Shown here piece after piece: positions 2,985 through 7,240 of a DNA stretch of 12,272 nucleotides. The stretch is from an uncultured Gammaproteobacteria bacterium (GTDB lineage Bacteria; Pseudomonadota; Gammaproteobacteria; UBA9214). A model generated the notes under the pieces. It had not been told where the DNA came from and ran no database searches. It saw only the letters and a program-made list of their open reading frames with translations. The DNA lies in assembly GCA_905480305.1 (NCBI GenBank), contig CAJQPV010000257.1, positions 1 through 12,272 of the forward strand, in the 5' to 3' direction. How positions within the stretch are numbered: the stretch's first letter is position 1; the number at the start of each line of letters is the position of its first letter. A program made the translations under genes and the position numbers.

Positions 2985-5612
2985 TTAACCGGATAGCTCG
3001 CTGTTGCTGGCTGCAGTACCATTCTGTTGCATGCGCCGATGCAGCCAGGCCAGTCCCAGCAGGGAAAGCCCCAGGCCCATAAACGAGGCAACCCGTAACA
3101 GACCCTCCAGGTCCGACATGTCGACGATGAATATCTTGGCAATCACCACGGCCAGCAGGGCGATACCTGACTTGTAGAGATCCCGCACATGCCAGCTGGT
3201 TCCGGCAAGGATGGCGGCGATAGCCATCATTAACCAGCTAATGGAATAGCTATACAGTTCGCCGTCACTGGTGGGATTATGCAGGGAAAGGCTGCCACCC
3301 TGCCACAGCTGGCGAATTTCCAGTGACACAAACAGCAGTGTTCCCAGGCCGGCTATAACAAGGGCTGCTTTTCGGAGCTGCGGTTCATGATAGCGCGCTA
3401 TCAGCAGGGCCATGAGTACAGGCAGGCCGTAGGCAAGCAGCAGGATGTTGAATAGCGGTGCGGCACCGATGCTTGCGTTACTCCACCACGGATTATGCAG
3501 GATGACGACAACGCCATAACTGGCCAGCGACAGTGCCAGCAGAATGCGCGAGCACAGTATGTATAGCTGCTTCAGGCTTTCACTGGCCGCGCTGCGGCGG
3601 TAGTAAGTCACTGACAGGGCCGCCCACAGCGAGGCATTGATGGCGGCTTCCCTGAAGCTGTAGCGGTGACTGAATATTTCGCCGTCGTAGAGCCAGTAAC
3701 GTAACTCGGCAGCCAGCGTCAGTACCAGCAGGTGCAGGGTGGCGGCTTCCAGCCACTGCTGTATTTTCGGGTTTGAACGACACTGCAGGGTGGCAAGTGC
3801 ACTGAATATAGTGGCGCCGCCATAGGTCCACAGTGACCAGTGAATGTCGCCCGGGTAGCTCAGCAGCCAGGGGTTAAACGTCAGGCGTGCTACCACCACT
3901 GCCAGCAATGCCTTGATCAGGTAGCCAAGCCAGGGAAGCTGATGGCGTTTCATTAACCAGCTTAACGACAATAGCTGGGCGGACAGAGCCAGCGTCAATC
4001 CGGCCTCGCGGAAATACATGGTCACGGCGAGCGAGTAGGCAAGGTGTGCGCCAAGCGTTAGCCACAGCGCCGTGTCATTGCGATTGCCACGCGCCAGCAA
4101 CACGCCGGCGGCAGCGCCATAGCTTGCGCCGGCAAGCAGCGTCAGCACACTCCAGGGAACGGACTGTGACAGACCATTGACCAGCAGGTAGGCAAGTGCC
4201 AGCCAGGCAAGCGGGGCGAGCAGGGCGAGCGACACCTGGCCGTGTGAAAATCCGCGCTCGCGCACATGCAGCAGTGCCAGACCGCTATAGATGAGACTCA
4301 TAAACCCTGCATAGCTGAGAAAATGCGCTTGTGCTGCCGCCGGCAAACCGGCCAGCACTATCTGCTTAATGGCAGGGTCATAATGGGCCCCGGAAATGAG
4401 CCAGCCGAGCCACTGCACAACCAGGCTTACCCACGGCAGTGCTGCGAGGCTGTCCCGCTGGCGTGCAGCGAAGAACACCACGGCGACCAGCGGTGCCCAC
4501 AATCCCGGGGCGCTTGCGTCGAATCCCTGCCAGTACAGGCTGAATCCCCATGCCAGGATTAGCAGTAACAGGCATATCTGGTTAAGTTGCAGGCGAAACC
4601 TGAAAAGCTTGACGGGTCGAGCGCCAGCTTCCGCAGGGCTTGCAGTGGTCGTTTGGCGCCGGCGTAACAACCAGTCAAAGCCGGGGAGCGCCATCAGACC
4701 CCAGGCCAGCAAGGCAAGATAGGGGCCGCGGAACATGTCTGCCTGTGGCTCGCTGAGTGAAATAAACCACCAGCCAAGACCGCCGGCCATGACACCCCAC
4801 CATAACCAGTAGCGGAACACGTAATGCTGTAACAGCAGCGCGGCGCCGCTGATGATAAGGCTGTAGATCATGGCGGCGACCAGGTTGCTACTGCCGGTGT
4901 TGACCAGGATTGGCACAATATAGGCGCCGATCAGGCCGATGATGGCCAGTAGCGGTCCGTGCAGCAGAGACAATGCCATGGTCATCAGCGAGACAATTGC
5001 CAGCAGTGTAAATACCAGGCGTGGGTCGAGCAGGTGGTAAAGATGCAGGGCGGCGAGCAGGGCAGCATACAGTGTAATGCTGGCACCGCCTGCCAGCGCG
5101 GCGAACACCGGGTCATTGCCACCGTTACGCCGGCGTAACCATTCCGCTGCCGCGTGCAAACCGATTCCGGTGGATATTGCGAGTGAGATACGCGCGCCGG
5201 GTCCAAGCAGTCCCACCTCCATGCTGTACTTGACCATAAAAATACCGGCCAGCGCGACACAGATGCCACCAAGCCAGATCATCCAGTTATCCGCCAGCAG
5301 GGTCTGCCAGCGAGGGGGTTCGTTTGCAGCCGTTGTGACGGGCCTGGATATTATTGGTTGTGGTGGTTGCGGCTGTTTGTCACGGGCGGCTGTTGGTGCA
5401 ATGTAAGGTGTGTCGGTTTTGGCCTGTTTCTTTGCTGCCGTGATGTGTGGTGCGGGTTGTTGAGTCTGTTGCTGCAGCCTGTTCAGCTCCCGTTGTAGTT
5501 GGTTTAACTGCTTGCGTAACCTGCCAGCCCGAAAAAATGCTACCCAGCCTAGTACGGCGCCTGTGACAAGACCCAGGCACATAACAGTTAACAACAGGAT
5601 TTCTGAGCCCAT
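2985..5612 (-). CDS. DUF2339 multi-pass membrane protein
   Basis: This 875-residue protein begins with one membrane helix (residues 3-26). A short coiled coil rich in Leu, Gln and Arg follows (about 28-50), then a Pro/Gln/Thr-rich linker to about residue 100. The rest is a very long hydrophobic domain with probably more than 20 membrane helices. The segment NWMIWLGGICVALAGIF followed by MVKYSMEVGLLGP is the recognisable DUF2339 entry motif. Function is unknown in this family; roles at the cell envelope are often guessed. The gene leads a three-gene run with yjbQ and the RNA methyltransferase. AGGTAGAA precedes the ATG at a suitable distance. It is transcribed divergently from the cytochrome gene at 5853. 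Confidence 0.9.
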   Translation of the reverse strand: MGSEILLLTVMCLGLVTGAVLGWVAFFRAGRLRKQLNQLQRELNRLQQQTQQPAPHITAAKKQAKTDTPYIAPTAARDKQPQPPQPIISRPVTTAANEPPRWQTLLADNWMIWLGGICVALAGIFMVKYSMEVGLLGPGARISLAISTGIGLHAAAEWLRRRNGGNDPVFAALAGGASITLYAALLAALHLYHLLDPRLVFTLLAIVSLMTMALSLLHGPLLAIIGLIGAYIVPILVNTGSSNLVAAMIYSLIISGAALLLQHYVFRYWLWWGVMAGGLGWWFISLSEPQADMFRGPYLALLAWGLMALPGFDWLLRRRQTTTASPAEAGARPVKLFRFRLQLNQICLLLLILAWGFSLYWQGFDASAPGLWAPLVAVVFFAARQRDSLAALPWVSLVVQWLGWLISGAHYDPAIKQIVLAGLPAAAQAHFLSYAGFMSLIYSGLALLHVRERGFSHGQVSLALLAPLAWLALAYLLVNGLSQSVPWSVLTLLAGASYGAAAGVLLARGNRNDTALWLTLGAHLAYSLAVTMYFREAGLTLALSAQLLSLSWLMKRHQLPWLGYLIKALLAVVVARLTFNPWLLSYPGDIHWSLWTYGGATIFSALATLQCRSNPKIQQWLEAATLHLLVLTLAAELRYWLYDGEIFSHRYSFREAAINASLWAALSVTYYRRSAASESLKQLYILCSRILLALSLASYGVVVILHNPWWSNASIGAAPLFNILLLAYGLPVLMALLIARYHEPQLRKAALVIAGLGTLLFVSLEIRQLWQGGSLSLHNPTSDGELYSYSISWLMMAIAAILAGTSWHVRDLYKSGIALLAVVIAKIFIVDMSDLEGLLRVASFMGLGLSLLGLAWLHRRMQQNGTAASNSELSG

Positions 5613-5852
5613 ATTTTCTACCTGGAATGGTTGTATTTATACCTGCTGTTTGCAGCGACCGATCATAATAGCCAAGCGCGGCAGGCCACAGTTATTTTTC
5701 GCGATGCAGGCATTGTAATATTTGTGATGAATCCTGTCGGAGAATGCCCTTTTTTGTTGGTGCGACGTATTATTCCCGTGCCAGGTTCACTATTATGGCG
5801 TGAATTTATTTTCTGTATGCAGGGCTTTTTCTTAACAGGGACGGATTTTCTT
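5613..5852. other. Divergent intergenic region
   Basis: These 240 bp separate the divergent DUF2339 and cytochrome genes and should carry both promoters. The plus frame of the cytochrome stays open across it, but the translation (MYLYLLFAATD onward) has no resemblance to an exported cytochrome and would bury the signal peptide. I see no strong -35/-10 pair or palindrome. Confidence 0.45.
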
Positions 5853-6356
5853 ATGAAAAGAATTATTCAACTGGTCTTTCTGGCGTCACTGATACCGGCC
5901 CTGTGTCAGGGTGAAGAAGACATGCGTCATCAGGTCAAGCAAACGCAATCAGTTGTGGCTGGCCTGTCACCTGAGTTGCAGGCGCTGTTTTCCAGGGAAA
6001 TGCTCGAGTTGCAAAAAGGCATGATGGCGATGGTGCCCCTGTACGTTGCGGGCAAGCTGGATGATATCGAAAAAATTGCAGCTCAAATGGAAAGCAGTTA
6101 CGTGCTCAAGCAGAATCTGACCGAGTCGCAAATGCATGAGTTGCACGCAAAACTTCCCGATGCGTTTATAGAACAGGATCAGCAATTTCACTACCTGGCC
6201 GGCATGCTTGCACATGTCGCGAATGTCGGAAAGACCGAACTGGTGGGCTTTTATATCGCGAAGATGAGTGAAAGCTGCCTTGCCTGTCACAGTGCCTATG
6301 CGACTGACAAGTTTCCTGCCCTGGCTGGCAAAGGGCAGGGCGAGCACAATCACTAG
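5853..6356 (+). CDS. Exported class II-like cytochrome c
   Basis: The 167-residue protein has a signal peptide (MKRIIQLVFLASLIPALCQG, likely cut near residue 20). Its single heme-binding motif CLACH is close to the C-terminus (142-146). A mostly helical body with a heme motif near the end is the layout of class II cytochromes (cytochrome c' or c556 type), so a periplasmic electron-transfer or gas-binding role is likely. The frame is open 74 codons further upstream, but the ATG at 5853 is chosen because it gives a proper signal peptide. A GGGACGG stretch upstream is a possible ribosome site. The gene converges on the soxX-soxA pair, so it is not in the same transcript even though it could work with it. 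Confidence 0.82.
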   Translation: MKRIIQLVFLASLIPALCQGEEDMRHQVKQTQSVVAGLSPELQALFSREMLELQKGMMAMVPLYVAGKLDDIEKIAAQMESSYVLKQNLTESQMHELHAKLPDAFIEQDQQFHYLAGMLAHVANVGKTELVGFYIAKMSESCLACHSAYATDKFPALAGKGQGEHNH

Positions 6357-6384
6357 CGAGGGTGTTAGCGAGCAGTCGGTTTTT

Positions 6385-6758
6385 CTAATACCTGACGGCC
6401 GGCGTTTCTATTTTAAGGCCGTTTGAACGCGACATGATGTAAAGCCCCATCAGGTTGATTTCTTCGGAACCGGCTTCGAACGGTTGCGCGCAATACGTCT
6501 CACATCCAGGCCATCACCTTCACTACCATGGCAGACAGCGCATGATTTCCCCGGGCCTTCCGGTGTCATGTTAAAGAGTTGCTGGCCCTGTTCCAGGGTA
6601 TGCATACCGGGGTTCTCAAAATCATCGTCCTGCATGTCACGCGTGCACTGCTTGATATATTCATAGCCGGAACGTGGTTCACCAGCGGTTGTGTCAGCTG
6701 CCGGCAAGGCCAGCAGCAGGGCAGACACCAACAGCAGGAATTTGTCGGGCAATATCAT
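6385..6758 (-). pseudogene. soxA: Broken soxA (internal deletion plus frame change)
   Basis: SoxA is the catalytic subunit of SoxAX, which attaches thiosulfate to SoxY in the periplasm. It is normally about 270-290 residues with two cytochrome-like domains. Here the frame gives a signal peptide, the typical domain-1 stretch with MQDDDFENPGM (42-52), and heme motif CAVCH (73-77, bases 6542-6528). It then runs into unrelated residues and stops at 6450, 102 codons in. In another frame, open from 6513 and ending with TAG at 6387-6385, the sequence reads AQPFEAGSEEINLMGLYIM and ends SNGLKIETPAVRY. This is the extreme C-terminus of SoxA domain 2. So roughly 150 residues are missing and the frame is changed, with the junction between about 6527 and 6490. 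The start codon overlaps the soxX stop (ATGA). An assembly error would look the same. Confidence 0.82.
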
Positions 6759-7240
6759 TTTAGTGTCACGAGCCAGGCAATCACGTCTTCCACCTGTTGT
6801 GCATTCAGGAAGGTTCTGCCGGCAAAGCGTTTGCCGGGGCGATGAATCAGGCGCGGATCACGGTAAAAACCGGGCATGATCGACATCGGGTTGATTTCAC
6901 GTGTGTCGACGACGCGCAGGCGTATCTGGCCTTCTGTAAGACGCGCTTCGATGCCGGACAGTGGCGGCCCGATGGTGCCATAGGCCTCAACATCCGGGAT
7001 GGGGAGCTGGTGACAGGCGAGGCAATTACCGCGGTCACTGTCGGACGCGATTGCCATGCCGCGCGAGGCATCCCCGGCAAGACCACACAGTGGCTGCGCG
7101 ATAGCGTAGTCGCTAACGTGCCACTGGCAATAATCAGCCGGCAGCGCTTGCTCCCCGGCATTGGCAATACCCTGACCGGTCAACAGCACAAGCTGCAGCA
7201 GCAGGATTCCCGCTAGTAAAAAAATTCGGCCGTGTGTCAT
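6755..7240 (-). CDS. soxX: SoxX, monoheme cytochrome c of SoxAX
   Basis: SoxX is the small electron-accepting subunit of the periplasmic SoxAX thiosulfate-oxidising complex. The 161-residue protein has a signal peptide (residues 1-28) and the heme motif CLACH (73-77), preceded by GDASRGMAIA. Typical SoxX sequence follows: IGPPLSGIEARLTEGQ (90-105), VVDTREINPMSIMPGFY (110-126; Met122 is the likely axial heme ligand) and a C-terminal VEDVIAWLVTLK. Length and order are normal and it looks intact. Cys38 and Cys52 lie outside the heme site and could form a disulfide. The stop overlaps the soxA start by 4 bp, a sign of coupled translation. No clear ribosome site precedes the ATG. soxY, soxZ and soxB are not in the window. 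Confidence 0.93.
   Translation of the reverse strand: MTHGRIFLLAGILLLQLVLLTGQGIANAGEQALPADYCQWHVSDYAIAQPLCGLAGDASRGMAIASDSDRGNCLACHQLPIPDVEAYGTIGPPLSGIEARLTEGQIRLRVVDTREINPMSIMPGFYRDPRLIHRPGKRFAGRTFLNAQQVEDVIAWLVTLK

Follow-up and report, generated by a model that had tools for sequence, protein, structure and literature searches.

The locus and its intact counterpart

The window is a whole contig of 12,272 nucleotides (C257), belonging to an uncultured gammaproteobacterial bin (G000) of 343 contigs that is 76.8% complete. It contains a complete soxX gene, followed on the same strand by a soxA gene that is broken in two; they are called soxX2 and soxA2 here, and their features are collected in Table 1. 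The description of soxX in the initial annotation, intact and overlapping the start of soxA, is borne out: its score lies above the curated TIGR04485 cut-off of 61 bits. In a soxX search of 57 genomes, soxX2 is 88% identical to its counterpart in the same-genus genome G011 and 70–71% identical to those in G012, G019 and G003.

Table 1. Features of the soxXA2 locus in the window.
Feature	Position	Strand	Evidence and remarks
soxX2, intact, 161 aa	6755..7240	-	ORF; TIGR04485 77.3 bits; stop overlaps soxA start by 4 nt
soxA2 gene, broken	6385..6758	-	codons 1–91 kept, then last 34 codons in another frame
soxA2 5' part: 102-codon open frame with signal peptide, CAVCH, 11 out-of-frame residues (NRSKPVPKKST) and TGA	6450..6758	-	ORF and translation
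Heme-1 motif CAVCH	6528..6542	-	translation
Join GCGCGC	6486..6491	-	alignment to G011
soxA2 3' tail: 34 codons in another frame (AQPFEAG...PAVRY) and TAG	6385..6489	-	translation; match to G011 residues 222–256
Cytochrome c'-like neighbour gene, convergent with soxA2; same place in G011	5853..6356	+	

The initial annotation proposed a comparison with soxA of relatives. Beside the soxX gene of G011 lies an intact soxA of 256 amino acids, and intact soxA2 genes are also present in G003, G012 and G019. The gene order is common to G011 and the window: lctP-like, trmH-like, yjbQ-like, cytochrome c', soxA, soxX and hemerythrin-like genes, with five more genes following, all 76–99% identical. The names lctP-like, trmH-like, yjbQ-like and hemerythrin-like are those we presume from the sequences themselves.

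The G011 SoxA2 protein aligns over residues 26–255 and 28–256 with PDB entries 1h31 and 2c1d (E = 6.6e-44 and 1.1e-42), which we take to be SoxAX of Rhodovulum sulfidophilum and Paracoccus pantotrophus, respectively. Like these diheme SoxA proteins, it has both heme motifs and the active-heme cysteine; the window copy differs from them in that residues 92–222 are absent.

Window positions 3013–5657 hold a gene for an 875-residue DUF2339 membrane protein (445 bits). The sequences flanking it abut in G011 (L063, positions 7871 and 7876), so that the block has been either inserted or lost between the two. The adjoining cytochrome c' stretch (5657–6433) reaches an identity of only about 78% to G011, and dS between window and G011 is 0.87 for the cytochrome c' gene versus 0.15–0.39 for 12 other gene pieces. 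This stretch and the DUF2339 block may have been exchanged as one unit.

The internal deletion in soxA2

The soxA2 frame on the minus strand, MILPDK...KSCAVCHGSEGDGLDVRRIAR, starts from the ATG at position 6758 and runs for 102 codons up to the TGA at 6450–6452. The carboxy-terminal tail, AQPFEAGSEEINLMGLYIMSRSNGLKIETPAVRY, is encoded in another frame and is closed by the TAG at 6385–6387. Residues 1–91 match the intact G011 SoxA with an E-value of 6.9e-39 and the tail matches its residues 222–256 with an E-value of 1.3e-14. A search of the window's own assembly at E ≤ 1 gave no SoxA2 match beyond these two pieces; since both match the ends of the G011 protein and nothing else in the assembly does, the resemblance is not due to chance. 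The same search revealed no sign of the second soxA that the initial annotation had suggested looking for, in a bin that is 76.8% complete.

In G011 the gene is 771 nucleotides long, versus 374 in the window. The missing segment is thus 397 nucleotides (132 codons and one nucleotide, or about 131 residues), a length that shifts the frame. The initial annotation had already recognised an internal deletion with an out-of-frame carboxy-terminus lying about 40 bp from CAVCH. The motif does precede the join by 41 nucleotides, and a large internal part is indeed lost, although its size, given as about 150 residues, was slightly overestimated. The lost residues align with C110, the CQHCH motif at 172–176 and C217 of G011, all of which are conserved in 1h31 and 2c1d. 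The missing part thus comprises heme motif 2, the cysteine that corresponds in the alignment to the ligand of the active heme, as had been suspected for the catalytic cysteine region, and the remainder of domain 1. We take C217 to be the ligand and C110 probably the distal ligand of G011 SoxA2. A single CXXCH motif (CAVCH) remains; two are present in 118 of the 121 homologues that were compared (G011 and the best 120 of 843 matches). Three SoxA2-type database proteins, P0012, P0025 and P0037, have fewer than two; the second motif of P0012 is lacking three residues. According to PMC6879331, the active heme in SoxAX is ligated by a cysteinate.

The 5' part scores 20.9 bits against the Pfam model SoxA-TsdA_cyt-c, below the cut-off of 27, and the best match in the bin to TIGR04484 (SoxA, curated cut-off 110 bits) is the window tail, at 18.9 bits; of the two soxA2 pieces, this model finds the tail alone. 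Compared with its intact syntenic orthologue in G011, the gene carries an inactivating, frameshifting deletion of 397 nucleotides and is most likely a pseudogene.

Both ends of the missing segment in G011 carry the sequence GCGCG. A sixth base of the repeat matches only if the ancestor had glutamine at position 224, the residue that P0012 has there. Repeats of at least 5 nucleotides flank 0.72% of the possible deletions of 100–599 nucleotides in the G011 gene, and 6 of 374 possible deletions of 397 nucleotides. This rarity favours a microhomology mechanism. Some bacterial pseudogenes arise by deletion between short direct repeats, and soxA2 resembles them in its two-ended microhomology, its frameshift and the recent loss of a dispensable paralogue, with no difference in kind. 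The lesion is ordinary in kind and most likely a common case of gene loss.

When the window and G011 are compared codon by codon, the 33 compared codons of the tail contain seven synonymous changes and one replacement (dN/dS 0.03), while dN/dS is 0.34 for the kept 5' part and 0.30 for soxX. The sole replacement in the tail is also present in P0012 and is thus either older than the deletion or parallel. The tail shows no decay beyond it, which points to a young deletion or, with lower probability, to a segment that is still constrained. In the kept part, S38C, L53H and A75V, one of them inside the CXXCH motif, introduce residues found in none of the 121 homologues. Taken together, the low dN/dS of the tail and these rare residues suggest that soxA2 was probably under selection until recently and may have been relaxed since, and that the lesion is young.

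The same join in other proteins

When the 102-residue product was searched against about 5.8 billion proteins, ten candidates yielded six matches, and two of these matches contain the same join. P0001 (102 residues, 99% identical) has one change, R29P, which occurs in none of the 121 homologues. It represents a cluster of five sequences, the longest contig of which measures 34,393 nucleotides and so is not the window contig; its source is not given, and the sample could be that of the window, assembled separately. P0002 (101 residues, 87% identical) is from ENA, from a cluster of two members on a contig of 776 nucleotides, and has the join peptide of the window. It differs from the window near the join on both sides, with E82 and D83 before it and leucine for serine at residue 101 after it. 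In each of the three sequences that carry the join, the 102-codon frame is uninterrupted. The three also have in common R87, beside the join, which is present in none of the 11 other aligned rows; arginine occupies this column in 4 of the 121 wider homologues.

In a tree of the 91 kept residues, P0002 stands apart from the window, with forks supported below 80%; a grouping of the two is not rejected (p-AU 0.41). The kept parts of the window and P0002 differ at 12 positions, those of the window and P0012 at nine and those of P0002 and P0008 or P0010 at ten. Most of the differences between the window and P0002 are variants also found in intact relatives. A young lesion fits poorly with the 12 differences, which recombination would explain. 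As the two sequences share the join and R87 yet differ elsewhere in the kept part, the deletion allele might be moving between lineages by recombination, with breakage of soxA2 favoured or at least spreading; we consider this rather doubtful. If true, the spread of the allele would run alongside other broken alleles, those of P0006 and of the genome G005 described below.

The remaining matches of the stub search are P0003 (166 residues), P0004 (81 residues, on a 231-kb contig), P0005 (132 residues) and P0006 (136 residues). The first three end in a frameshift, while P0006 lacks 79 residues in frame, at ACGGCT repeats if its DNA resembles that of G011. We do not take these alleles as proof of a preferential decay of soxA2: P0005 lacks an initial methionine and is perhaps cut by a contig end, the single-base shifts may be sequencing errors, and the search covered soxA2 alone.

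A second soxXA pair and its loss

Of 12 other genomes of the genus, 10 have a soxA and a soxY on a common contig, elsewhere than soxXA2. In G011 this main set has the order soxX-Y-Z-A, with soxZ presumably so assigned from its sequence. The main SoxA is 30–37% identical to SoxA2 and, in G011, contains only the second heme motif. It is full-length in 19 of 23 genomes of the family, in two pieces in G002 and without a match in G000, G006 and G013. In G002 (C248:3279–3952) the two pieces of the main soxA are frames that overlap, a pattern that either a true frameshift or a sequencing error may have produced. SoxA2, delimited by us at an identity of at least 45% to the G011 protein, is intact in four of the 23 (G003, G011, G012 and G019, with two copies in each of the last two), and remnants are present in two, G000 and G005. 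The soxXA2 genes are a second, orphan pair with a patchy distribution in the family, and soxA2 is an accessory paralogue.

The G005 remnant consists of 77 soxA2 codons (G005:C62:21368–21598; L086 7366–7590) at the place where G003 has an intact soxXA2. The gene that flanks it is the one found there in G003 as well; where soxX2 and the beginning of soxA2 would lie, G005 has 342 unrelated nucleotides. The loss of soxXA2 in G005 is a second, independent event. G005 is 97% complete and keeps the main soxA, soxY and soxB.

The initial annotation saw in the broken gene a clean stage in Sox loss. A reading of the deletion as one step in the loss of the whole pathway from the lineage has in its favour that soxB, soxY and the main soxA have no match in G000. 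We consider it unlikely. When the 8-kb region of G011 that holds the main sox genes is compared with G000, only four matches of 25–67 nucleotides are obtained, all at query positions 7041–7109. A missing contig therefore explains the absence of these genes, which is uninformative, and we rejected a recent loss of the main sox genes in G000 as unsupported. Moreover, the broken gene belongs to the orphan pair, and G005 has lost soxXA2 while retaining the main genes.

The other explanation raised initially, a collapsed assembly, is disfavoured as well. Either the assembler or chimeric reads might have created the join, and the organism would then have an intact soxA2: the window is a contig of a fragmented and incomplete bin, chimeric reads likewise favour short repeats, and the tail still resembles a gene under selection. 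Such an artefact is nevertheless quite improbable. The same join is carried by P0001, possibly from the same sample, and by P0002, albeit on a 776-nucleotide contig. The latter has differences a few codons before and after the join and so is not a copy of one artefact, which would have to have been repeated in a different haplotype. In addition, a repeat of 5–6 nucleotides would be too short for a de Bruijn assembler to join at, and no further soxA2 piece matches elsewhere in the assembly at E ≤ 1. That the stub is a functional mini-cytochrome, exported and kept for the one heme at CAVCH, is extremely improbable: its signal peptide, the CAVCH motif, the intact soxX-soxA overlap and the frame open in all three sequences would suit such a protein, but about half of domain 1 including C110 is gone, replacements have introduced residues seen in none of the 121 homologues, one of them inside the CXXCH motif, and the new tail is merely old DNA read in another frame. 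For the heme-binding stub that the initial annotation had envisaged, the analysis gave no evidence. The predicted structures are of low confidence for both the stub (mean pLDDT 55.7) and the intact G011 SoxA2 control (44.0).

The window thus very probably contains a real, inactivated soxA copy of a second, orphan soxXA pair, produced by a 397-nucleotide deletion between repeats of 5–6 nucleotides (GCGCG/C). Slippage or end joining at the repeat would have cut out about 131 codons and put the remainder out of frame. The resulting allele is predicted to be null for SoxA function, which would leave soxX2 without its partner. If translated, it would yield a short exported peptide that keeps one CXXCH motif but lacks heme motif 2 and the cysteine of the active site.

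Among the listed papers on soxA pseudogenes and second soxXA copies, no report of this allele was found. According to the excerpted text of PMC6382920, Thioalkalivibrio has extra copies of soxX and soxA of unclear function; as here, additional soxXA genes lie outside or beside the main set. In contrast to soxA2, the copies described in that excerpt are intact, tandem or extra, and the sole pseudogenes mentioned in it are soxY fragments at contig ends.

The locus shows a step of gene loss to the exact base, set against an intact copy in a neighbouring species and a broken allele that other sequences share. It is also a warning: a bin with soxX and a broken spare soxA should be scored neither as having nor as losing the Sox pathway.
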